64,000 nucleotides of DNA from contig NZ_JQMQ01000005.1 in the NCBI RefSeq assembly GCF_000744815.1, positions 6,715,801-6,779,800 of the forward strand, written 5' to 3'. A program made the translations under genes and the position numbers. The notes under the pieces were generated by a model. It made no database searches, was not told the DNA's origin, and saw only the letters and a program-made list of their open reading frames with translations. Of this stretch, positions 35,901 to 49,319 are shown piece by piece (the stretch's first letter is position 1; every line of letters begins with the position of its first letter). The stretch comes from Phaeacidiphilus oryzae TH49 (GTDB taxonomy: Bacteria > Actinomycetota > Actinomycetes > Streptomycetales > Streptomycetaceae).

Positions 35901-36842
35901 CTACTTCACGGCGGGGTGACGCCGGGTGAGCGCCTCGGCCACGGCCACCTCGGTGCCGGCCAGGCCGACCGAGTAGAAGAGGGTGAGCTGGTCGGCGGAG
36001 GTGCGGGCCTCGGCCTCACCGGCCAGCACCGCGCCGAGCTCCAGCATCCGCTCGGCCGGGACCAGCGGCTCGCCGGGTCCGGAGGCGGCCTGCGCCGCCG
36101 AGTCGGTGAGGACCACGTCGGCGCGCTCGGCGAGCGCGGGCGGGATCTCGTGCCGCTCGGCGGTCTTCAGGCCCAGGCAGGAGACGTGGGTGCCGGAGGA
36201 GATCCAGTCGGCCTCCAGGACCGGCTGCTTGCTGCTGGTGGCCGTGATCACCACGTCGCGGTCCCGGACCGCGTCCTCGACGGAGTCCGCCGGGTGCGCG
36301 GTCACGCCCAGTTCGGCGGCCAGCCGGCCGGCGAACTCCCGGGCCCGCTCCGGGCGCCGGGAGGCGACCCGCACCTCCGCGATCCCGCGTAGCGAGAGCA
36401 GCGCCCAGATCTGCGCCCAGGCCTGCGCCCCGGCGCCGACCAGGCCGATCCGCAGCGGCTCCTCGGTCGGGGCCGCGGCGTCCACGGCAAGCGCGCCGAT
36501 CGCGCCGGTCCGGCGCGGCCCCAGCTCGTTGCCGTGCACGATCGCGCTCAGCCGCGGCCCGCCGCCGTCCCTGCCGCGCTCCTCCCAGACGGCGACCAGG
36601 TGCTCACCGCCCACGAAGTCGTTGTACGCCCGAAACCCGAACACCCCCCGGTCGGCCAGCCGCCCACTGGTGAAGACCAGATCCCCGGGCCCGAGCGCCG
36701 CCCGCGACCGCGCCGGCGCCACCAACTCCCCAGCCGCATGGGCAAGCAGTGCCCCCCGCACCGCCTGCACGGCGGTCCCGGCATCCAACCGCTCACGCAC
36801 CTGCGCATCCCCGAGAACCACGGGTCCGGCATGTGTGCTCAT
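35901..36842 (-). CDS. Ornithine cyclodeaminase / mu-crystallin family protein
   Basis: The protein has 313 residues from the ATG at 36842. A Rossmann NAD(P)-binding segment, IGLVGAGAQAWAQIWALLSLRGI, follows an N-terminal dimerisation domain. DRDVVITATSSKQPVLEADW and GTHVSCLGLK match the family. Members include ornithine cyclodeaminase, alanine dehydrogenase, ketimine reductase and enzymes of siderophore or amino-acid synthesis. The residues separating these are not decisive here, so only an NAD(P)-dependent imine/amino-acid reaction can be claimed. Confidence 0.85.
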   Translation of the reverse strand: MSTHAGPVVLGDAQVRERLDAGTAVQAVRGALLAHAAGELVAPARSRAALGPGDLVFTSGRLADRGVFGFRAYNDFVGGEHLVAVWEERGRDGGGPRLSAIVHGNELGPRRTGAIGALAVDAAAPTEEPLRIGLVGAGAQAWAQIWALLSLRGIAEVRVASRRPERAREFAGRLAAELGVTAHPADSVEDAVRDRDVVITATSSKQPVLEADWISSGTHVSCLGLKTAERHEIPPALAERADVVLTDSAAQAASGPGEPLVPAERMLELGAVLAGEAEARTSADQLTLFYSVGLAGTEVAVAEALTRRHPAVK

Positions 36843-37053
36843 CAAGACTCCAATCCGCGCTTCGCCTGCCAGTATCTTGATCCCCGGCCCCCCGGACCCG
36901 GGAACCCGCCCCGGTCGGCGCGCCTTCGCGGCCGGTTCCGGCGATGACCTGGGTGCGGAGGCCGGATCCTGTTTCCGGCCGCGCCGGGCTTCCACATATG
37001 AGGGGTGCGGCTCCGGGCTGACAGGTGGGTGGGGGCGGGGCAGGGTGGGGTGT

Positions 37054-37395
37054 ATGGCGGAGCGCGGTAGTAGGACGACGATCGAGGTCGGGCGGGATGT
37101 CGCCACGTTGATCAACGTGTTCGAGGTGGCGCCGGAGCGGCAGGCCGAGCTGGTTCGGGCCTGGGTGGACATGACGGAGAGGATCATGCAGCACTGCGCA
37201 GGGTTCATCTCGGCCAACGTGCACGCGAGCACCGACGGGCGGCGGGTCGTCAACTACGCGCAGTGGGAGAGTGAGAAGCACTTCCAGGACCTGCTGCGGG
37301 ACCCGGAGGTGCGGGCTGAGTTCGATCGGCTGGGGGCGATCGCCGAGCGGATGGACCCGCATCTCTACACGGTGGAGTCGATCCACCACAGCTGA
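37054..37395 (+). CDS. Antibiotic biosynthesis monooxygenase (ABM) domain protein
   Basis: The protein has 113 residues from the ATG at 37054. The dimeric alpha-beta barrel is evident: LINVFEVAPERQAELVRAWVDMTERI, GFISANVHASTDGRRVVNYAQW and FQDLLRDPEV. ABM proteins are cofactor-free quinone-forming oxygenases or heme-degrading relatives; many are uncharacterised. It is convergent with the PPOX gene, with a 12-base gap. Confidence 0.82.
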   Translation: MAERGSRTTIEVGRDVATLINVFEVAPERQAELVRAWVDMTERIMQHCAGFISANVHASTDGRRVVNYAQWESEKHFQDLLRDPEVRAEFDRLGAIAERMDPHLYTVESIHHS

Positions 37396-38086: not shown

Positions 38087-39136
38087 ATGTTCGACTACGC
38101 ATCGGCAGATCTCGTCGACGCCTTCACCCGTGAACTCCGGCTCTGCCGGCTCGCCGAGGGCGAGCACGCCGTCGTCCTCAGCGAGCCCGGCAGCCGCGGC
38201 GACTACGTGGCCGCCGCCTTCGCCGCGGCCAAGTCGCTCGGCGCGCACGTCGTGGCCGCCACCGTCCCCGGCGGGTCGCCCGCGCCCATGCCGTCCACCC
38301 ATACCGGCGCCGGCCCCGGCCTGGTCTCGGTGCTGGAGGACCGCACCGCGCAGGACCTGCTGAAGTCCGCCGACCTGGTGGTCGACCTGACCCGGGAGGG
38401 CTTCATCCACGCCCCCCTCCAGCAGGAGATCCTGGACGCGGACACCCGGATCATCTTCGTCTGCGACGCCCCTGACGTGCTGATCCGCAACCTGCCCGAC
38501 CCCGGCGACCGGGAGCGCGCGGAGGGCGCGGCCCGACTCCTCAAGCGCTCGCGGGAGATGACGGTCAGCTCGGCGGCCGGCACCGAGCTCACCGTCTCCC
38601 TGGCCGACAGCCACCCCGGCTTCCAGTGCGGCTATGCCGACACTCCCCGGCGCTGGGACCACTGGCCGAGCACCATGGTGCTGTGCTGGCCCGAGGTCTC
38701 CAACGGCCGGATCGTGCTGGGCGAGGGGGACATCCTGCTGCCGTTCAAGGAGTACGTCCGCCGCCCGGTCAGCCTGGAGGTCGTGGACGGCCGGATCGAG
38801 AAGGTCGAGGGCGGCGCCGAGGCGGAACTGCTGTCGATGTTCTTCGACGACGCCGAGGAGAAGTGGGGCGACCGCTGGGCCCGCCATCTCTCCCACATGG
38901 GCTGGGGGATGATGCGCAGCGCGGACTGGTTCGCCACCGCGATGTACGGCAAGGACGAGCTGATGGGGATGGACGCCCGGGCCTTCGCCGGGAACTTCCT
39001 GTGGTCCACCGGACCGCATCCGTTCCTCCGGCGCGAGTCCTACGCGCACCTCGACATCGCGATGCGCGGCTGCACTGTCCGGGTGGACGGGGCCGAGGTG
39101 GTCGTCGACGGCCGACTCGCCGAGGACGCGGGCTGA
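38087..39136 (+). CDS. nicX: 2,5-Dihydroxypyridine 5,6-dioxygenase (NicX-like)
   Basis: The 349-residue length is nearly identical to Pseudomonas NicX (350). The fold belongs to the M29-like aminopeptidase group. The iron-ligand region is retained: the HLSHMGWG histidines (267, 270) and YAHLDIA (H321, D323). NicX opens the 2,5-dihydroxypyridine ring with O2 to N-formylmaleamate. An ATG with GAGGAG a few bases upstream marks the start. It is the first gene of an operon carrying all the surrounding nicotinate steps, which makes this assignment much firmer than homology alone. Confidence 0.85.
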   Translation: MFDYASADLVDAFTRELRLCRLAEGEHAVVLSEPGSRGDYVAAAFAAAKSLGAHVVAATVPGGSPAPMPSTHTGAGPGLVSVLEDRTAQDLLKSADLVVDLTREGFIHAPLQQEILDADTRIIFVCDAPDVLIRNLPDPGDRERAEGAARLLKRSREMTVSSAAGTELTVSLADSHPGFQCGYADTPRRWDHWPSTMVLCWPEVSNGRIVLGEGDILLPFKEYVRRPVSLEVVDGRIEKVEGGAEAELLSMFFDDAEEKWGDRWARHLSHMGWGMMRSADWFATAMYGKDELMGMDARAFAGNFLWSTGPHPFLRRESYAHLDIAMRGCTVRVDGAEVVVDGRLAEDAG

Positions 39137-39185: not shown

Positions 39186-40475
39186 ATGGCAATGAGCCAG
39201 TCGTACCGCGTGATCGTGGTCGGTGGTGGACTCGGCGGACTGACCACGGCACTGGCCCTGAGGCACCGCGGGCTCCGGGTCACCGTACTGGAGCGCGCGC
39301 GCCAGTTGGGCGAGGTCGGCGCGGGGATCCAGACCGCTCCCAACGCGAGCCGCATCCTGATCGGACTCGGCCTGCGCCGGCAGCTGGAGGCGATCCGCAC
39401 CCAGCCGGAGGACCAGGTCCGCCGCCGCTGGCAGGACGGCAGCGTCATCGGCCTGACCCGGCTCGGCGCCGAGGTCCAGGAGAAGTACAACGCGCCCTAC
39501 TGGCACTACCACCGCGCCGATCTGCACCGGGTGCTGCTGGACGCCTGCCTCGACCCGGAGGGCCCAGGCCCGCTGGTGGCGGTGCACACCTCCGCGCAGG
39601 TCGTCGAGCTGGACCGGGGCGACCCGCGGCAGCCGGCGGCGATCACCGCCGACGGCCGCCGCTTCGAGGGCGACCTGGTCGTCGGCGCGGACGGAGTCCG
39701 TTCCCAGGTGCGGGACCTGATCGGCGCCGAGGACACCCTCGTCTTCTCCGGGGACATGTGCTATCGCGCGCTCATCCCCGGCGACCTGCTCGCCGCCGAC
39801 CCGGCCACCCGCTTCCTCTTCGACCGCTACCAGTCCACGATCTGGTACGGCCCGGGCCGGCATCTGGTCCACTACCTGATCCGGGGAGGGGAGTGGCTGA
39901 ACGTGGTGGCCTGCGTCCCCGCCTCCGAGGAGGTGGCCAGGGCGGTCGCCGGCGGCGAGGACTGGACCTCGACCGCGAGCGTCCGCGAGCTCTCCGAGGC
40001 CTATCCGGGCTGGGACGACCGGGTGCCGGCGATGCTGTCCAAGGCCAAGGAGGAGGTGGCCTGCTTCGCCCTCTTCCACCGCCGCCAGGACCCCGTCTGG
40101 GTGGACGGCCGGGTGGCGCTGCTCGGCGACGCCGCCCACGCCATGCTGCCCTACCAGGCGCAGGGCGCCTCCCAGGCGATGGAGGACGCGGCGGTGCTGG
40201 CCGAGGAGCTGGGCGCGGTCACCGTCGACCGGGTCGAGGAGGCGCTGCGGCGCTACGTCGACCGGCGGGCCAAGCACGCCGGGATGGTCCAACAGGCCTC
40301 CTTCCGCAACCGCACCTTCTACCGCCTCCCCGAGGGCCCCGAGCAGCAGGCCCGGGACGCCATCCTGGCCGAGCGCTTCGCCGGCGAGTCCGACGTCTCC
40401 TACGACTGGCTGTGGAGCGGCACCCCGCTCGACCAGTCGGACCGGGAGTCCTTCCGCTACCCGATCCACCGTTGA
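39186..40475 (+). CDS. nicC: FAD-dependent monooxygenase (6-hydroxynicotinate 3-monooxygenase-like, NicC)
   Basis: The protein has 429 residues. The FAD-binding Rossmann motif is IVVGGGLGGLTTALALRHRG, and the second FAD motif GRVALLGDAAHAMLPYQAQG is complete. It belongs to the salicylate-hydroxylase-like class A flavoprotein group. NicC hydroxylates and decarboxylates 6-hydroxynicotinate to 2,5-dihydroxypyridine using NADH and O2. Its position directly after nicX supplies NicX's substrate. A gentisate- or salicylate-type substrate is possible by sequence alone, but the context disfavours it. Confidence 0.8.
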   Translation: MAMSQSYRVIVVGGGLGGLTTALALRHRGLRVTVLERARQLGEVGAGIQTAPNASRILIGLGLRRQLEAIRTQPEDQVRRRWQDGSVIGLTRLGAEVQEKYNAPYWHYHRADLHRVLLDACLDPEGPGPLVAVHTSAQVVELDRGDPRQPAAITADGRRFEGDLVVGADGVRSQVRDLIGAEDTLVFSGDMCYRALIPGDLLAADPATRFLFDRYQSTIWYGPGRHLVHYLIRGGEWLNVVACVPASEEVARAVAGGEDWTSTASVRELSEAYPGWDDRVPAMLSKAKEEVACFALFHRRQDPVWVDGRVALLGDAAHAMLPYQAQGASQAMEDAAVLAEELGAVTVDRVEEALRRYVDRRAKHAGMVQQASFRNRTFYRLPEGPEQQARDAILAERFAGESDVSYDWLWSGTPLDQSDRESFRYPIHR

Positions 40476-40484
40476 GGTGACGCC

Positions 40485-42023
40485 ATGTCAGTAACGTCAG
40501 GAACGGCCGGCAGACCACCGGAGACCCCCGTCCAGGGAGCGCGCGACAACGCGAACAACGCGAACAACGGGGCCGCGCTCTCCGCCATCGTCCAGGAACT
40601 GCCGTGGAAGTGGCGGGTGCAGGGCCGGATCTTCGTCATCGGCGGCCTCGGCTACCTCTTCGACGCCTGGGACGTCACCCTCAACGGCTACCTCACCCCC
40701 CTCCTCGGCACCGACTTCCATCTCGGTATGGGCCAGCGCAGCCTGGTGGCCACCGCCAACCTGGTCGGGATGGCGGCCGGCGCGCTGCTCTGGGGCGCGA
40801 TCGCGGACCGGATCGGACGCAAGCGCGCCTTCTCCATCACCCTGCTGGTCTTCGCGCTCTTCTCGGTGCTGGGCGCGGCCGCGCCCGACTACCCGGTCTT
40901 CCTGGTGCTGCGCTTCCTCGCCGGGGTCGGCCTCGGCGGCTGCATCCCGGTGGACTACGCGCTGGTCGGCGAGTTCAGCCCGCGGAAGTACCGGGGGCGG
41001 GTGCTGACCGCGATGGACGCCTGGTGGCCGATCGGCGGCACGTTGTGCGGGCTGGTCTGCACCGGGCTGGTGAGCCTGGCCGGGGGGAGCGAGGGGAGCC
41101 ACGGGGTGTGGCGCTGGCTACTGGTGGTGATGGTGCTGCCCGCGCTGCTGCTCTTCTGGATCCGGCGCGGGGTGCCGGAGTCGCCGGTCTTCCTGGCCCG
41201 CAACGGGCGCGAGGCGGAGGCGCGGGCCGTCATCGCCCGGCTGGTCGAGGAGACCGGGGCCGGTCCGGTGACGTACCCGGCGCCGGCGCCGTCGGAGCCC
41301 GGGCCGAGGGAGGAGCGGGCGGACGGCGCTGTGCCGCCGCCGGCGGGTCGGCCGCTGGCCGCCGGCTGGGCCGGACTCCGCTCCGGGCTGGTCCAGTTGG
41401 GCCTGGTCTGGCGCAGCGCGCCGCGGATCACCTCGGTGGCCTGGGCGCTCTTCGTCACCGTGATGCTGGTCTACTACGCCGCGCTCAGCTGGATGCCGAC
41501 CATCCTCGCCGACCAGGGCTACGCGGAGACCGCGGCCTTCTCCGGCACCACGCTGATGAGCGGGGTCGGGATCGTCGGCGTGCTCACCGCCGCCTGGCTG
41601 GTGGACGTGGTCGGCCGCAAGCCGCTGCTCGGGCTGGCCGCCCCGGTGGCCGCGATCGCGCTGGTGCTCTTCGCCGTACTGCTGCACACCCAGTGGGCGG
41701 CGCTGACCCTGCTCGGGCTCTTCGGGTTCCTGGTGCAGCTGGCCATCCCGCCGCTGTACGCGTACGTGGCCGAGCTTTACCCGACCCGGATCCGGGCCAG
41801 CGGCTTCGGTGCGGCCTCGGCGGCCAGCCGGGTGGCGACCGGCTTCGCCCCGCTGCTCTTCGGCAGCGTGCTGTGGCCGGTGCTGGGGCTGCCGCTGACC
41901 TTCGCCGTGCTGGGCGCGGCGGTCGTCCTGGCGGTGGTCTGGATGGCCTTCGCCGCCCCGGAGACCAAGGGACGCGAACTGGACGCAGAGGAGACGGACA
42001 TGGGAGAGGGGGTGCCGTCGTGA
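40485..42023 (+). CDS. MFS transporter (likely nicotinate or pyridine-carboxylate uptake)
   Basis: The protein has 512 residues and about 12 helices. The MFS motif between helices 2 and 3, GAIADRIGRKRAFS, and the matching DVVGRKPLL in the second half are present. LVGEFSPRKYRGRVLTAMDA is typical of the aromatic acid:H+ symporter/sugar-porter-like group. A long basic, Gly-rich cytoplasmic loop joins the halves. Located between nicC and the hydroxylase subunits, it probably imports nicotinate. That substrate is inferred from context. Confidence 0.8.
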   Translation: MSVTSGTAGRPPETPVQGARDNANNANNGAALSAIVQELPWKWRVQGRIFVIGGLGYLFDAWDVTLNGYLTPLLGTDFHLGMGQRSLVATANLVGMAAGALLWGAIADRIGRKRAFSITLLVFALFSVLGAAAPDYPVFLVLRFLAGVGLGGCIPVDYALVGEFSPRKYRGRVLTAMDAWWPIGGTLCGLVCTGLVSLAGGSEGSHGVWRWLLVVMVLPALLLFWIRRGVPESPVFLARNGREAEARAVIARLVEETGAGPVTYPAPAPSEPGPREERADGAVPPPAGRPLAAGWAGLRSGLVQLGLVWRSAPRITSVAWALFVTVMLVYYAALSWMPTILADQGYAETAAFSGTTLMSGVGIVGVLTAAWLVDVVGRKPLLGLAAPVAAIALVLFAVLLHTQWAALTLLGLFGFLVQLAIPPLYAYVAELYPTRIRASGFGAASAASRVATGFAPLLFGSVLWPVLGLPLTFAVLGAAVVLAVVWMAFAAPETKGRELDAEETDMGEGVPS

Positions 42024-42856
42024 AGCCCGCGGCGTTCTCGTACCACCGGGCCCGGGATCTGGCCGGGGCGGTCGGCCTGCTGCACGAGCTGGGGGAGACC
42101 CGGGGCGAGCAGGCCAAGCCGATCGCCGGAGGGCAGAGCCTGGTCGCGATGATGAACTACCGGCTGGCGCGGCCCGCGCATCTGGTGGACATCGCCCGCG
42201 TTCCCGGCCTGTCCGGCCTGACGCTCGGTCAGGACGCGCTGCGGATCGGCGCCCTGACGACCCATCATGAGGTCGAGCACGCCACCGATGCCGAACTCGG
42301 CCCGTTCCGCGTGCTGCGCGAGGCGATGCGCTGGATCGGCCACCCGCCGATCCGGGTGCGCGGCACGGTCGGCGGCAGCCTGGCGCACGCCGACGCGACC
42401 GCAGAATGGTGCCTGCTCGCGGTGGGTCTGGACGCGCAGGTCGAGGCGCACGGCCCGGGCGGGACGCGGACCATCCCCGCCGCCGACTTCCTCCGCGGCT
42501 GGTACAGCACCGCGCTGGACCCGGACGAGCTGGTCACGGCGGTGCTGTTCCCGCGGCCCGGAGCGGCGCGCGCCGCCGTCACCGAGTTCGCGCTCCGGCA
42601 CGGCGACTTCGCGGTCGTCTCGGCCCTGGTCGACCTGGACGGCGGCCGGGTCGCGCTCGGCGGGGTCGCCCCGGTCCCGATCCGGGTCCCCGAGGCGGAG
42701 GCGGTGCTCGCCGCCGGCGGCTCCTACGCCGACTGCGCGGAGGCCGCCGCGGCCGCGGTGGACCCCCCGTCCGACGCCCGTGCGAGCTCCGCCCACCGGC
42801 GGGCCCTCAGCCGGAACCTGGTCCGCGCAGCCTGTGAGGAGGCGGCCGCCCGATGA
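42020..42856 (+). CDS. Molybdenum hydroxylase FAD-binding subunit (CoxM/NdhF-type)
   Basis: The protein has 278 residues from a GTG at 42020 that overlaps the previous stop (GTGA). KPIAGGQSLVAMMNYRLARP binds FAD, and the second FAD loop is GTVGGSLAHADATAEWCLLA. It transfers electrons from the iron-sulfur subunit to an acceptor. It is co-translated with the Mo subunit (ATGA overlap) and is part of a hydroxylase expected to make 6-hydroxynicotinate. Confidence 0.9.
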   Translation: MKPAAFSYHRARDLAGAVGLLHELGETRGEQAKPIAGGQSLVAMMNYRLARPAHLVDIARVPGLSGLTLGQDALRIGALTTHHEVEHATDAELGPFRVLREAMRWIGHPPIRVRGTVGGSLAHADATAEWCLLAVGLDAQVEAHGPGGTRTIPAADFLRGWYSTALDPDELVTAVLFPRPGAARAAVTEFALRHGDFAVVSALVDLDGGRVALGGVAPVPIRVPEAEAVLAAGGSYADCAEAAAAAVDPPSDARASSAHRRALSRNLVRAACEEAAAR

Positions 42857-45246
42857 ACGATTCGACAACCAGCGCCACCACCGCGAGGGCCGCCGAAGGC
42901 GGTCTGGTCGGCCGGTCCGTGCGGCGGCGGGAGGATCCCCGCCTGCTCAGCGGGCGGGGGAGGTTCACCGACGACATCCACCTGCCGGGGATGCTGCACG
43001 CGCAGTTCGTGCGGAGCACACAGGCGCATGCGCGGGTCCTCGGGGTCGATCTCACGGCGGTGCGGGCCGTGCCGGGGGTCGTCGCCGCGTACACCGCCGA
43101 GGATCTCGCACTGGGCCCGATCACCGCCGAACTCGACCGCCCGCCGGAGGAGTTCGCCCGTACCGAGATGCCGGTGCTGGCCGGGGAGCGGGTGCGGTTC
43201 GCGGGGGAGCCGATCGCGATCGTCCTCGCCGAGGACCCGTACGCCGCCGAGGACGGGGTGGAGGCGGCCGTCGTCCGGTACGAGCCGCTGCCCCCGGTCG
43301 TCGACGCCGGCCAGGCGCTGACCGCCGGGGCCGGGCAGCTGCACCCGGAGGCCCCCGGCAACACCCTGGTCGACGTCACGCTCTTCCCCGGCGAGGGGAT
43401 CGAGGAGGTCTTCGCGCGGGCGGACTGCGTGGTCCGGGTGGAGAGCCGCACCGGCCGGCAGAACGCCCTGCCGCTGGAGACCCGCGCGGCCGTGGCCGAA
43501 TGGGACGAGCGCGCCGGGCAGTTGGTGCTGCACACGCCCAGCCAGGTCCCGCACCAGGTGCGGACGGTGGCCGCCGGCTCGCTCGGGCTGGACGAGCAGG
43601 CGGTGCGGGTGGTGGTGCCCGACATGGGAGGTGGCTTCGGCATCAAGTGCGTGGTGGGCCGGGAGGAGATCGCCACCGCCGCCGCGGCCCGCCGGATCGG
43701 CCGGCCGGTGAAGTGGATCGAGGACCGCAGGGACGCGCTGACCGCCTCCTTCCTGGCCCGCGAGCAGCACTACCGGCTGCGGGCAGCGTTCTCCGCCGAG
43801 GGCAGGATCCTCGCCCTGGACGCGGACGTGGTCTGCGATATGGGCGCCTACTCCTGCTATCCCTTCACCGCCGGGATCGAACCGCTGATGGCGGCGGCCG
43901 AGATGCCGGGCGTCTACCGGGTGCCGGCGTACCGGGCGCGCGGGCGGGCGGTCGCCACCAACAAGGCGCCCAGCGCGCCCTACCGCGGGGTCAGCAGGCC
44001 CCAGTACGTGATGGCGGTGGAACGCCTCTTCGAGCGCGCGGCAAGGGAGTTGGGCATCGACGCGGTGGAACTGCGGCGCCGCAACCTGATCACCGAGTTC
44101 CCGTACCGGGGCGTCAACAACATCACCTACGACCCCGGCTCCTACGTCGAATCGCTCGACCTGTGCGAGCGGCTGCTGCGCGAGGAGGGCTGGTACGACC
44201 GCAGGGCGGCGGCGGAGGCCGAGGGCGACTGGCTCGGCATCGGCTACTCCTGCTTCAGCGAGCGCACCGGCTACGGCACCGCCGCCTTCGCCCAGCGGAA
44301 GATGGCCGTGGTCCCCGGCTACGACCTGGCCGAGGCCCGGATGGACCCGGGCGGCGCGGTCACCGTCACCACCGGGACGCTCAGCCACGGCCAGAGCCAC
44401 GAGACGACCATGGCGCAGATCGCCGCCGACGAACTCCGGCTCCCGCTGGGCAAGGTGATGCTCCGTCAGGGCGACACCGACCGCGTCCCCTACGGCTGGG
44501 GGACCTTCGCCTCCCGTTCGATCGCCATCGGCGGCAGCGCCGTCCGGCTGGCCGCGCGCAACCTCGGCGAGCGGCTGCGGACGCTGGCCGCCCGGCTGCT
44601 GGACGTCCCGGTCGAGGAGACCGTCCTCGACGAGGGCGCCGTACGGGCCTCCGACGGCCGGGCCCTGCCCTACCCCGAGCTGGCCAGGATCGCCCACCTC
44701 CGCGCCGACCTGTTGCCCAAGGGGATCGAGCCGGGGCTGACCGCCACCGCCTCCTTCGACCACTTCGGCGACGGCACCTTCTCCAACGCCACCCACGGCG
44801 TGGTCGTCCGACTCGACCGGGACAGCGGGCGGGTGGAGATCCTCCGCTACCTCTGCGTGGAGGACTGCGGGGTGGCGGTCAACCCCAAGGTCGTGGAGGG
44901 CCAGTGCCGGGGCGGGATCGCTCAGGGCCTGGCCGGGGCGCTCTTCGAGGAGGTGCGGTACGACGCGGACGGCCAGCCCCAGTGCACCGGCTTCCTCGAC
45001 TACCTCACCCCGACCGCGCTGGAGATCCCGGAGATCTCCGTCCACCACCTGGAGACGCCCTGCGCCTTCACCGAGACCGGCGCCAAGGGCGCGGGGGAGG
45101 GCGGCACCATCGGCGCCCCGGCGGCCGTGCTGAACGCGGTCAACGACGCCCTGCGCCGGACCGGCGTGGAGCTCGACGACACCCCGATCCGGCCCGAGGC
45201 CGTGTACTTCGCCATGGACAGGAACAGGGAGCAGACCGAATCATGA
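42853..45246 (+). CDS. Molybdenum hydroxylase large subunit (CoxL/xanthine-dehydrogenase family)
   Basis: The protein has 797 residues. Mo-pterin contacts include VPDMGGGFGIKCVVG, and the catalytic base Glu lies in GAKGAGEGGTIGAP near residue 735. The active-site loop reads APYRGVSRPQ. True CO dehydrogenases have AYRCSFR, so the Cys that binds Cu is missing and this is a hydroxylase, not a CODH. Taken with the neighbours, the likely reaction is nicotinate to 6-hydroxynicotinate. Nicotine or another pyridine carboxylate is an alternative. Overlaps flank it at both ends. Confidence 0.9.
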   Translation: MNDSTTSATTARAAEGGLVGRSVRRREDPRLLSGRGRFTDDIHLPGMLHAQFVRSTQAHARVLGVDLTAVRAVPGVVAAYTAEDLALGPITAELDRPPEEFARTEMPVLAGERVRFAGEPIAIVLAEDPYAAEDGVEAAVVRYEPLPPVVDAGQALTAGAGQLHPEAPGNTLVDVTLFPGEGIEEVFARADCVVRVESRTGRQNALPLETRAAVAEWDERAGQLVLHTPSQVPHQVRTVAAGSLGLDEQAVRVVVPDMGGGFGIKCVVGREEIATAAAARRIGRPVKWIEDRRDALTASFLAREQHYRLRAAFSAEGRILALDADVVCDMGAYSCYPFTAGIEPLMAAAEMPGVYRVPAYRARGRAVATNKAPSAPYRGVSRPQYVMAVERLFERAARELGIDAVELRRRNLITEFPYRGVNNITYDPGSYVESLDLCERLLREEGWYDRRAAAEAEGDWLGIGYSCFSERTGYGTAAFAQRKMAVVPGYDLAEARMDPGGAVTVTTGTLSHGQSHETTMAQIAADELRLPLGKVMLRQGDTDRVPYGWGTFASRSIAIGGSAVRLAARNLGERLRTLAARLLDVPVEETVLDEGAVRASDGRALPYPELARIAHLRADLLPKGIEPGLTATASFDHFGDGTFSNATHGVVVRLDRDSGRVEILRYLCVEDCGVAVNPKVVEGQCRGGIAQGLAGALFEEVRYDADGQPQCTGFLDYLTPTALEIPEISVHHLETPCAFTETGAKGAGEGGTIGAPAAVLNAVNDALRRTGVELDDTPIRPEAVYFAMDRNREQTES

Positions 45247-45743
45247 CGGATCGTCAGCTGATCACCCTCACCGTCAACGGCCGCGACCACGAGCTGGCCG
45301 TCGACCCCAGGCGCACCCTCGCCGACGTGCTCCGGCACGATCTGCTGCTCACCGGTACGCACATCGGCTGCGAGCACGGGGTCTGCGGGGCCTGCACGGT
45401 GCTGCTGGACGGGCAGTCCGTCCGCAGCTGCCTGGTCTTCGCGGTGCAGGCCGAGGGCCGGGGCATCCGGACCGTCGAATCCCTCGGCGAGCCGGGCGAG
45501 TTGAGCGACCTCCAGGAGAGCTTCGCCGAGCACCACGGACTCCAGTGCGGCTTCTGCACGCCCGGATTCCTGATGCTCGCCGAGGGCTTCCTGGCCGAGA
45601 ACCCGGCGCCGAGCCGCGAGGAGATCCGCGAGACCGTCGCGGCCAACCTCTGCCGCTGCACCGGCTACCAGACGATCACCGATGCCATCGAGTCCTGCGC
45701 CGCCGCCCGGCTGGCGCGGGCCGCCGAGGGGAGCACCCTTTGA
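45243..45743 (+). CDS. Molybdenum hydroxylase 2Fe-2S subunit (CoxS-type)
   Basis: The protein has 166 residues. The plant-ferredoxin cluster uses C43, C48, C51 and C63 (GCEHGVCGACTVLLDG). The second cluster uses C102, C105, C137 and C139 (QCGFCTPG, NLCRCTGY). It relays electrons from the Mo site to FAD. The ATG overlaps the Mo-subunit stop. The first codons spell TGACGGATCGTCAG, a palindrome also seen at 26614. Confidence 0.93.
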   Translation: MTDRQLITLTVNGRDHELAVDPRRTLADVLRHDLLLTGTHIGCEHGVCGACTVLLDGQSVRSCLVFAVQAEGRGIRTVESLGEPGELSDLQESFAEHHGLQCGFCTPGFLMLAEGFLAENPAPSREEIRETVAANLCRCTGYQTITDAIESCAAARLARAAEGSTL

Positions 45744-46429
45744 TCCTCGACCACGAGACCGCCGTGGCCGCCGCGCCCGACGAGGTCTTCGACCTGATCT
45801 GCGACGCCGAACGGGTGGCCGGCTGCATGCCGGGCGCGACGCTGGAGGGGCGGGCGGGCGGCGAGAGCGGTGAGGAGGAGGCCTGGAGCGGCCGGGTGAC
45901 CGTCAAGGTCGGTCCGATCACGGCGGGTTACGCCGGCACCGTCCGCTTCCTGGAGACCGACCGGGAGCACCGGCGGCTCCGGCTCCAGGCGCGCGGCGCC
46001 GACACCCACGGCGGCGGGGACGCCGAGGCCGGGGTGGAGCTGGAGGTGGCGGAGAGCGCGGACGGGAGCGGCTCGGTGCTGCGGGTCAAGACCGACCTGG
46101 TGCTGAGCGGCCGTATCGTCCAGTTCGGCAAGGGGCCGATCCTGGCCGTCTCGGACCGGATACTCCGTCAGTTCGCCGACAACCTGGGGCGGTTGCTCTC
46201 CGCCGCGCCGACGGCGGAGGCGGGCGCGGCGGCGGGCCGGGCGCCGACCGCGGTCCGCGTTCCCGCCGCCACTGCCGCTGCCGCGCAGGCTCCGGCCCCG
46301 GCCGAACTCGACGCGCTCGGCGCCCTGTTCGGCCCGAATCTCGGCAGGTACGCCCCGATCGCCGGGGCCTTCGCCTTCGGCGTCGTCGAGGGCTGGCTGA
46401 TCTCCCGCGCCTTCGGCCGCCGTTCGTGA
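45740..46429 (+). CDS. CoxG-like SRPBCC protein with C-terminal membrane anchor
   Basis: The protein has 229 residues from a TTG at 45740 that overlaps the Fe-S stop (TTGA). CoxG domain features are DEVFDLICDAERVAGCMPGA and GRVTVKVGPITAGYAGTVRF. An Ala-rich linker follows, then a hydrophobic segment (PIAGAFAFGVVEGWLISRAF) at the end, suggesting membrane attachment. CoxG recruits CO dehydrogenase to the membrane in Oligotropha. Here it may dock the pyridine hydroxylase near the respiratory chain so that electrons go to quinone. Confidence 0.82.
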   Translation: MILDHETAVAAAPDEVFDLICDAERVAGCMPGATLEGRAGGESGEEEAWSGRVTVKVGPITAGYAGTVRFLETDREHRRLRLQARGADTHGGGDAEAGVELEVAESADGSGSVLRVKTDLVLSGRIVQFGKGPILAVSDRILRQFADNLGRLLSAAPTAEAGAAAGRAPTAVRVPAATAAAAQAPAPAELDALGALFGPNLGRYAPIAGAFAFGVVEGWLISRAFGRRS

Positions 46430-46467: not shown

Positions 46468-48009
46468 ATGCCCCAGCAAGCAGAGCCGGACCCCTCGGCG
46501 GAGATCGCCGCCACCTACCGGCGGGCCGGCTTCGGCGCCGCCGTCCGCCGCGGGCGACGGCCCGCGCTGATCGTCGTCGACCTCACCCGCGGGTTCACCG
46601 AACCCGGCTTCGCCACCGGCGCCGACCTCACCACCGAGGTCGCCGCCGCGGCCGAGCTGGTCGAGGCCGCGCACGCCGCCGGCGCGCCCGTGGTCTTCAC
46701 CGCCATCGCCTATTCGGAGGCCGAACTCGCGGGTGGCGTCGCCTGGTTGGAGAAGTCCCCGGGGATGCGCGCCCTGCGCGAGGGTGACCCCGCGGTCGAA
46801 CTCGACCCGAGGCTGCCGTACCGCCCGGGCGCCGACCATCTGATCGTCAAGAATGGCGCCTCCGCCTACGCCGGGACCGGTCTGGCCGCCCTGCTGGCCT
46901 CGCTCGGCTGCGACACCGCCGTCGTCTGCGGCGCCACCACCAGCGGCTGCGTCCGGGCCACCGCCGTGGACGCCGTGCAGTCCGGCCTCCCGGTGCTGGT
47001 CGCCGCCGCCGCGGTCGGGGACCGGGCGCGGCCGCCGCACGAGGCCGCGCTCTTCGACCTGGACGCCAAGTACGCCGACCTGGTCGGCCAGTCCGAGCTG
47101 CTGGAGTACTTCGCCGGCACCCGCGCCGCCCAGCGCCTCCTCGGCCAGCGGGCGCTGGCCGACCTCGCCGACGCGCCGGCGCGCAGCCGCTGGGTGCGCA
47201 CCGGGGACGGGCTGCGGCTGCACGTCCTCGACTACGGGCCCGCCGACGGCGCCGGAGCCCCCGACCACCGGCCCGCCGCCCTGATCCTGCCCGGCATCAC
47301 CAGCCCGGCCGTCACCTTCGACTTCGTCGCCCGCGAACTGACGGACCTGGTAAGGCCGCTGGTGCTGGACGTGCGGGGCCGCGGGCTCTCCGACGCCGGG
47401 GCGGGCTACACCCTGGAGGACTACGCGCGGGACACCGAGGAGGTGATCCGCCGACTCGGCCTGGAGCGGCCGCTGCTGGTCGGCCATTCGATGGGCGCCC
47501 GGATCGCCGCCGCGACGGCCGCCCGCGGCCGGGTGCCGGTGGCCGGCTCCGTGCTGGTCGACCCGCCGATGAGCGGGCCCGGCGGGCGCGGCCCGTACCC
47601 GACCACGCTGGCCGCCTTCCTCGGCCAGCTCGACCAGGCCCGCCGGGGGACGGACGCCGAGGAGGTGGCCCGCTCCTGGCCGCGCTGGCCGCGGCCCGAG
47701 CAGGAGCTGCGGGCCCGCTGGCTGGCGAGCTGCGACCGGGAGGCGATCGCCGCCACCCACCGCGGCTTCGAGGAGGAGGACTTCTTCGAGCTGTGGCCGT
47801 CCGTCCCCGCGCCCTGCGCACTGCTGTACGGGGAGGAGAGCCCGGTGGTGACGGCGGCGGGCGCGGCCGAGGCGGCCGCGGCCAACCCGGCGGCGCGGGT
47901 GGCCGGGGTGCCGGGGGCCGGGCACATGGTCTTCTGGGACGAGCCCGGGGCCGGTCTCGCCGCCCTGCGTGAGGCGCTGGAGAGCGTGGGAAAGTTGGCG
48001 CATGGCTGA
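46468..48009 (+). CDS. Fusion: maleamate amidohydrolase (NicF) + N-formylmaleamate deformylase (NicD)
   Basis: The protein has 513 residues, with AGGAG upstream of the ATG at 46468. Residues 1-215 are an isochorismatase-type amidase with its full triad: D38 (IVVDLTRGF), K128 (IVKNGAS) and C161 (GATTSGCVRA). Residues 240-513 are an alpha/beta hydrolase with S341 (GHSMGAR), D365 (VLVDPPMSG) and H486 (GAGHMVFWD). The S-D-H spacing of 24 and 145 residues mirrors the NicD triad S101-D125-H245. N-formylmaleamate would be deformylated by the second domain, and the resulting maleamate hydrolysed by the first. In Pseudomonas these are two proteins. Domain order is the reverse of reaction order. Confidence 0.85.
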   Translation: MPQQAEPDPSAEIAATYRRAGFGAAVRRGRRPALIVVDLTRGFTEPGFATGADLTTEVAAAAELVEAAHAAGAPVVFTAIAYSEAELAGGVAWLEKSPGMRALREGDPAVELDPRLPYRPGADHLIVKNGASAYAGTGLAALLASLGCDTAVVCGATTSGCVRATAVDAVQSGLPVLVAAAAVGDRARPPHEAALFDLDAKYADLVGQSELLEYFAGTRAAQRLLGQRALADLADAPARSRWVRTGDGLRLHVLDYGPADGAGAPDHRPAALILPGITSPAVTFDFVARELTDLVRPLVLDVRGRGLSDAGAGYTLEDYARDTEEVIRRLGLERPLLVGHSMGARIAAATAARGRVPVAGSVLVDPPMSGPGGRGPYPTTLAAFLGQLDQARRGTDAEEVARSWPRWPRPEQELRARWLASCDREAIAATHRGFEEEDFFELWPSVPAPCALLYGEESPVVTAAGAAEAAAANPAARVAGVPGAGHMVFWDEPGAGLAALREALESVGKLAHG

Positions 48010-48496
48010 CCATGCACCCGCTGACTCCCCGTCCACCGCCGCCCCCCGCTCCCGCGCGCCCGAGGTGCCGGCGCAGCTGGCCGACGCGCCCGGCTTCCTG
48101 GCCCGCCGGCTCTACCAGGCCTATCTCGCGGTGTGGGTGCGGCATGTGGACTCGGCGCTGACCGGTCCGCAGTTCGCCGTACTCCAGCTCGCGGAGGCCA
48201 ACCCGGGTTCGGACCAGCGGTCCATCGCGGCCCTCGCCGCGCTCGACAACTCCACCATGACGGATGTGGCCCGCCGCCTGGAGGGGCGCGGGCTGCTGGA
48301 CCGCAGAAGCGATCCGGCGGACGGACGGCGGAAGATCATCTCGCCGACCGAGCGCGGCCTCGAAGTGCTGCGCACGGCCAATCGGCACGCCCGCGAACTC
48401 GACGAACTCCTTCTCAAGCCGTACCCCACCGACAGGCGCGCCGAGCTGGTCCGCGAGCTCCAGGCGCTCGCCGACCACTGGGAAGGCCTGACCTGA
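48002..48496 (+). CDS. MarR family transcriptional regulator (NicR-like)
   Basis: The protein has 164 residues from the ATG at 48002, overlapping the fusion gene by eight bases. The winged helix includes QRSIAALAALDNSTMTDVARRLEGRGLLDRR followed by the wing DPADGRRKIISPT. In Pseudomonas the MarR protein NicR represses the nic genes and responds to 6-hydroxynicotinate. Being inside the operon suggests autoregulation, possibly at 37871-37885. Confidence 0.85.
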   Translation: MADHAPADSPSTAAPRSRAPEVPAQLADAPGFLARRLYQAYLAVWVRHVDSALTGPQFAVLQLAEANPGSDQRSIAALAALDNSTMTDVARRLEGRGLLDRRSDPADGRRKIISPTERGLEVLRTANRHARELDELLLKPYPTDRRAELVRELQALADHWEGLT

Positions 48497-48527: not shown

Positions 48528-49319
48528 GTGACCACCCATCACATCGGGATGATCGTCCCCAGCTCCAACCTGACCATGGAGACCGAACTGCCCCGGATGC
48601 TGCGGGCGCGCGAGACCCGGCAGCCGGAGGACCGGTTCGTGCTGCACAGCAGCCGGATGCGGATGAAGCAGGTGACGCCCGAGCAGCTGCGGGCGATGAA
48701 CGAGCAGACCGAGCGGGCCGCGGCGGAGCTGGCCGACGCCCGGCCGGACGCGGTGGCCACCGCCTGCCTGGTCGCCATCATGGCGCAGGGGCCCGGCCAC
48801 CACTGCACGGCGGAACGGCAGATCGCCGAGGTGCTGCGGGCCGAGGGCGCGGAGGCGCCGGTCGTCTCCAGCGCGGGCGCGCTGCTGGACGGGATCGCCG
48901 CGCTGGGCGCGCGCCGGGTGGCGGTGATCACCCCGTACCTCAAGCCGCTCACCGCCAAGGTGGTCGAGTACATCGAGGACGCCGGTACGGAGGTCGTCGA
49001 CGCGCTGAGCCTGGAGGTCGCCGACAACCTCGAGGTCGGCCGGCTGGACCCGCAGGACCTGACCGGGCACTGGCGCCGCCTCGACCTCTCGCGCGCGGAC
49101 GCGCTGGTGATCTCCGCCTGCGTCCAGATGCCCTCGCTCGCCGCGATCCCGGCGGTCGAGGCCGCCTGCGGCCTGCCGGTCCTCTCCGCGGCGACGGCCA
49201 CCACCTACCGCCTGCTCGCCGAACTCGGCCTCGACCCGACCGTCCCGGACGCCGGCCGCCTGCTGTCCGGCGACCTCCCGGCGGCCCGGAGGCCGACGCC
49301 GGCCTCTCGGGTCAGCTGA
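48528..49319 (+). CDS. nicE: Maleate cis-trans isomerase (NicE-like)
   Basis: The protein has 263 residues from a GTG at 48528. It belongs to the Asp/Glu racemase superfamily. The two active-site cysteines are C80 (ATACLVAIM) and C198 (SACVQMPSL), the positions expected for maleate isomerases. IVPSSNLTMETELPRM is a family signature. It converts maleate to fumarate, the last step into the TCA cycle. It closes the operon, and its stop lies within the palindrome shared with the next gene. Confidence 0.9.
   Translation: MTTHHIGMIVPSSNLTMETELPRMLRARETRQPEDRFVLHSSRMRMKQVTPEQLRAMNEQTERAAAELADARPDAVATACLVAIMAQGPGHHCTAERQIAEVLRAEGAEAPVVSSAGALLDGIAALGARRVAVITPYLKPLTAKVVEYIEDAGTEVVDALSLEVADNLEVGRLDPQDLTGHWRRLDLSRADALVISACVQMPSLAAIPAVEAACGLPVLSAATATTYRLLAELGLDPTVPDAGRLLSGDLPAARRPTPASRVS

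Follow-up and report, generated by a model that had tools for sequence, protein, structure and literature searches.

A predicted bifunctional maleamate amidase-N-formylmaleamate deformylase fusion in an actinomycete 2,5-dihydroxypyridine gene cluster

Known enzymes of the pathway and the gene cluster

In the described systems, Nfo and NicD act as N-formylmaleamate deformylases, and Ami and NicF as maleamate amidases, as set out in the available text of two papers (PMC6122326, PMC5500553). The available text of a 2017 survey states that, among 2806 proteomes, linked ndpHFEG homologues occur only in Gram-negative strains, that the nicotinic-acid route via 2,5-DHP has been reported only in Gram-negative strains, and that Streptomyces rapamycinicus carries linked ndpHFG (PMC5343071). 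A search of open-access papers returned no description of an amidase-deformylase fusion and no published activity for any actinomycete member. Complete 2,5-dihydroxypyridine clusters are present in actinomycetes, and one of them encodes the fusion described here.

The window, which is the whole stretch of 64,000 nucleotides analysed from Phaeacidiphilus oryzae TH49, harbors a 2,5-dihydroxypyridine catabolic cluster on its forward strand, in which the dioxygenase, the deformylase, the amidase, and the maleate isomerase are all encoded. The cluster includes genes for a NicX-like 2,5-dihydroxypyridine 5,6-dioxygenase (38087..39136), whose sole PDB match at 1e-5 is 7cn3 (E 6.5e-63), a NicC-like FAD monooxygenase (39186..40475; Pfam FAD_binding_3), and an MFS transporter (40485..42023; MFS_1), as well as the FAD subunit (42020..42856; FAD_binding_5), the Mo subunit (42853..45246; MoCoBD_1 and MoCoBD_2), and the 2Fe-2S subunit (45243..45743; Fer2_2) of a molybdenum hydroxylase. 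The fusion gene (46468..48009) is flanked by genes for a CoxG-like protein (45740..46429; Pfam COXG, E 4.4e-8), whose start codon, the TTG at 45740, is uncertain, and a MarR-family regulator (47969..48496; Pfam MarR), whose start is also uncertain and which, as drawn, begins within the 3' end of that gene. Two genes on from the fusion lies the gene for a NicE-like maleate isomerase (48528..49319; 4fq7, E 6.3e-74). Nicotinate is a putative entry substrate of the cluster: subunits of a molybdenum hydroxylase and an FAD monooxygenase are encoded, but the monooxygenase matches 8x38 (vanillate 1-hydroxylase, its top PDB match) and 8gsm (4-hydroxybenzoate) better than 8uiq (6-hydroxynicotinate 3-monooxygenase, E 2.8e-43). 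Two loci from genomes of the same family as the source genome (L205 and L206) share the cluster order, with the amidase and deformylase genes separate.

Two side observations concern the cluster and its surroundings. The dioxygenase is 75-78% identical to that of the window in L042, L198, L205, L206, and L208, and 33-37% identical in L038, L040, L200-L204, and L207; by their sequences, the latter loci look as if they use another dioxygenase lineage. Upstream of the cluster, at 35901-37395, an ornithine-cyclodeaminase-like frame on the reverse strand overlaps a forward-strand ORF with an antibiotic-biosynthesis-monooxygenase domain.

Architecture and identity of the two halves

The fusion gene is open from an ATG at 46468 to the stop codon ending at 48009 and encodes a product of 513 aa, in which Pfam recognizes an Isochorismatase domain (residues 33-206, E 3e-31) and an Abhydrolase_6 domain (residues 272-499, E 1.2e-21). 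The sequence-only reading of this DNA, which proposed a single protein composed of an isochorismatase-fold half followed by an alpha/beta-hydrolase half, is borne out by this uninterrupted frame. A longer ORF could start at the GTG at 46426; the ATG at 46468 is preceded by AGGAG six bases upstream. Third-position GC of the gene is 0.90-1.00 in each 50-codon block. Together, the ORF, the Pfam domains, the PDB matches, and an AlphaFold2 model (mean pLDDT 91.4, pTM 0.77, from an alignment of 56 rows) support annotation as a putative fused maleamate amidase-N-formylmaleamate deformylase. In the model, the amidase half (residues 1-221; 46468..47130) closes with helix 208-221, a non-helical hinge of residues 222-226 (47131..47145) follows, and the deformylase half (residues 227-513; 47146..48009) begins with helix 227-235. 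The two domains had earlier been delimited as residues 1-215 and 240-513; their junction moves slightly earlier, since the halves meet at about residues 222-226 of the model.

The junction itself was examined at the nucleotide level. Across residues 205-250 all frames lack stop codons, and the single start-like codon is an in-frame GTG inside an SRWV motif. None of 1368 single-base edits (substitutions, insertions, and deletions) over residues 196-252 yields an amidase stop together with a deformylase start upstream of the ALADL segment, and the same test on a slightly different segment of the window gave both stop and start in 0 of 1272 edits. A single sequencing slip therefore does not explain the fusion in the window.

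For the amidase half, the top PDB match by sequence is 4l07, Ami of Pseudomonas putida S16 (E 3.1e-50), followed by 26st, deposited as an N-carbamoylsarcosine amidohydrolase (E 2.1e-47), and NicF of Bordetella (3ot4) is matched at E 7.1e-35. Because 26st is nearly equal to Ami as a match, the substrate is not fixed by sequence alone. The model matches 4l07 in Foldseek with a TM of 0.93 on the target, and the fold agrees with 4l07, 4l08, and 3uao. The proposed isochorismatase triad of D38, K128, and C161 is found in full at these positions, with C161 aligned to the cysteine mutated to alanine in 4l08, the Ami C149A chain. A quick tree built from 152 amidase-half rows places the half from the window within a 42-row clade with NdpG (SH-aLRT 98), the other rows of which are either NdpG or lie no more than 3.5 kb from a deformylase homologue. 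The Pseudomonas NicF reference belongs to a separate 10-row clade (SH-aLRT 100) of that tree, from which the Bordetella NicF sequence was left out; this reference is a protein annotated as N-carbamoylsarcosine amidohydrolase beside nicD on pBYT1-1 and is called NicF from its context. Of the earlier label NicF-NicD, the maleamate-amidase-like and deformylase-like domains are retained, but the grouping with NicF is not, as the amidase half clusters with NdpG. Judged by the clade criterion of the sequence-only reading itself, the name NicF is thus imprecise, although the proposed reaction is unchanged.

For the deformylase half, the top PDB match by sequence is 4l0c, Nfo of P. putida S16 (E 1.7e-37 when the whole protein is the query, 5e-38 for the half alone), and the model matches its fold with a TM of 0.94 on the target. 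The alpha/beta-hydrolase triad recognized previously (S341, D365, H486) is in place: S341 is aligned to position 94, which is alanine in 4l0c (the Nfo S94A chain), and D365 and H486 are aligned to an Asp and a His that are conserved in both a Sphingobium NdpF and an annotated Pseudomonas NicD. A quick tree built from 78 deformylase-half rows places 39 actinomycete rows, the window among them, as sister to a group with NicD and NdpF; the 70-row group holding the window, NicD, and NdpF (SH-aLRT 94) stands apart from eight distant rows with long branches among them. No NCBIfam model scored above its curated cut-off for either the amidase or the deformylase half. A second actinomycete NicD-like clade of 10 rows (L015, L148, L152, and L189-L195) is 48-53% identical to the deformylase half of the window, and its members have no amidase gene directly adjoining.

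Distribution and origin of the fusion

The sequence-only reading had suggested a census of the fusion across actinomycete genomes. Adjacent pairs in the order amidase, deformylase were examined at 39 actinomycete loci, 34 with separate genes and five fused in frame, a count from which pairs may be missing, as the two 394-genome searches scored only three candidates per genome. The loci came from searches of 394, 61, 394, 398, and 348 genomes (overlapping sets), from contigs of named genomes (80 of 113 relatives kept), and from one plasmid record; one deformylase match (G022:C214), lying at the edge of its contig, was left out. Among the separate pairs, 21 + 12 were assigned from examined junctions and one (L198) from its ORF ends; some have spacers between the genes, and others show a stop-start overlap. 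The halves of the window's protein are 62-72% identical to the stand-alone relatives at the loci tabulated.

Besides the window, the fused loci are L175, L177, L179, and L180, from four genomes of the order of Pseudonocardia acidicola. Their proteins are 86-96% identical among themselves and about 70% identical to that of the window, and these genomes contain no further close copy at E 1e-8, the next best match being 40% identical. The window's version of the fusion is known from one genome, the sole member of its genus among those searched, in which neither half has a second close copy; the next best matches are 33% and 32% identical (E 4.7e-9 and 8.8e-8, respectively). For the other four fusions, the single-base edits that yield both a stop and a start number 1 of 1224 for L175, 259 of 1248 for L177, 2 of 1224 for L179, and 25 of 1224 for L180. 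This makes the test a weak one for two of them, and the case for these fusions rests on the agreement of the four genomes.

In Pseudomonadota, no fusion was found at 18 deformylase places in 16 genomes, of 398 searched; 16 of these places have an amidase-half relative about 1.6-2.0 kb downstream of the deformylase, and the other two have none within the short flank examined. A family-wide fusion was also considered and rejected, as the same-frame matches in L127, L130, and L125 each have a stop between the halves. The fusion is rare, derived, and lineage-specific.

Two further loci deserve mention in their own right. At L055:10001-11433, which is outside the 39 loci counted, an amidase-half relative (52% identity over residues 15-202) is followed, after a stop, by a distantly related alpha/beta hydrolase (25% identity to the half from the window), and this pair perhaps serves a related pathway for another amide. 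At L135, around positions 983-1123, a separate amidase gene encodes, ahead of its stop, a long tail rich in Ala, Ser, and Pro, resembling a linker without a fused partner.

The history of the fusion was inspected in a joined amidase and deformylase tree of 39 rows, built from halves that excluded the junction residues; the tree sets dropped amidase rows with fewer than 150 and deformylase rows with fewer than 190 matched residues, identical rows, and the third and later matches of a locus. The L175, L177, L179, and L180 fusions form a clade (100/99) inside a group of ten, the other six rows of which have separate genes, and the window lies elsewhere, on a long end branch (0.37) and in no starred grouping. 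The fewest changes on this tree are two. A single origin of all five fusions was rejected by the AU test (p-AU 0.0037, with the window's branch being long), and on these alignments the fusion most likely arose twice. Both groups are joined at a similar point, which follows the final amidase helix and precedes the ALADL segment of the deformylase. This shared point and the amidase-deformylase order of the operons indicate that domain order follows gene order. The domain order, remarked on earlier as the reverse of the reaction order, is no puzzle, as it is the gene order of actinomycete operons.

Proposed function and comparison with described systems

From the observed anatomy, homology, gene context, and distribution, we infer both activities and any benefit of the fusion. 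It is highly probable that the protein is an ordinary bifunctional enzyme acting in the breakdown of 2,5-dihydroxypyridine, and probably of nicotinate, produced by a lineage-specific in-frame fusion of neighbouring genes. The ancestral arrangement would have been two adjoining genes, amidase then deformylase, often stop-start overlapped as in relatives; the amidase stop and the deformylase start would both have been lost, leaving about five hinge residues. The C-terminal half (Ser341-Asp365-His486) would take formate off N-formylmaleamate, and the N-terminal half (Asp38-Lys128-Cys161) would next take ammonia off maleamate, yielding maleate for the isomerase whose gene is the second one downstream. 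The main effect of the fusion is probably fixed 1:1 production and tethering of the two enzymes; fixed stoichiometry would be the simplest gain, and there may also be no gain.

The last point corresponds to a neutral fusion, in which a stop and a start were lost by chance in a tight operon and the change was tolerated as both domains fold alone. We regard this as a serious possibility while leaning against it. The stop-start overlaps in relatives, which make an in-frame fusion easy, and the similarity of the halves to stand-alone relatives speak for it, but the fusion has been seen twice and persists in four genomes, with 4-14% divergence between their proteins. A rather unlikely, tentative explanation for two fusions at the same point is that the amidase and deformylase were already a complex in actinomycetes, handing maleamate over directly; if so, the separate amidase and deformylase of other actinomycetes would bind each other. 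That the fusion was selected for channelling, with maleamate from the deformylase site reaching the amidase site while still held by the protein, we consider improbable. Consecutive steps in one chain and two fusions that apparently arose independently at the same point are consistent with it; however, the model, at a pTM of 0.77, does not fix the relative orientation of the two domains, 34 of the 39 loci work with separate genes, and the intermediates of the pathway are not known to be unstable.

It is very unlikely that one or both halves belong to another pyridine pathway and use a different substrate there, for instance an N-carbamoyl compound or some other N-formyl amide. The near-equal match to 26st and a monooxygenase that resembles other decarboxylative hydroxylases more than NicC would fit such a role, but the amidase half lies in the NdpG clade, where the other rows are near a deformylase homologue, and the dioxygenase and maleate isomerase are encoded in the same cluster. 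A sequencing or assembly error that merged two separate genes, conceivable as the window's version comes from one genome, is extremely improbable given the outcome of the single-base edits, the lack of stops in any frame at the junction, and the similar fusions in four further genomes.

Relatives carry the same two enzymes as separate genes, as stop-start-overlapped genes, and as one fused gene; these three arrangements constitute a natural experiment that makes the effect of fusion on flux measurable.

The enzyme type of each half, the chemistry, and the fusion of consecutive ring-cleavage steps are already known. The amidase half resembles Ami of P. putida S16 (4l07, 4l08) and sphingomonad NdpG in fold, position of the active-site cysteine, and proposed reaction, and shares a clade with NdpG; Ami and NdpG are stand-alone proteins, whereas their counterpart in the window is the N-terminal half of a fusion, with 46% identity to Ami (Foldseek). 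NicF (3uao and 3ot4 of Bordetella bronchiseptica, and the Pseudomonas NicF) is likewise similar in fold and proposed reaction, but identity is 39% (Foldseek) and the Pseudomonas plasmid reference falls in a different clade. The deformylase half shares its fold, the Ser-Asp-His positions, and its pathway with Nfo (4l0c), NicD, and NdpF, yet is 34% identical to Nfo and belongs to a sister clade. In addition, the N-terminal ALADL segment, located after the hinge in the window, is present in actinomycete deformylases and absent from the NicD and NdpF references. A parallel in kind is provided by the PcaD-PcaC fusions of protocatechuate breakdown (NCBIfam bifunc_PcaDC and bifunc_PcaCD), in which consecutive ring-cleavage enzymes, one of them an alpha/beta hydrolase, are also joined; these are other enzymes of another pathway, representing the same kind of event rather than relatives of the whole protein.
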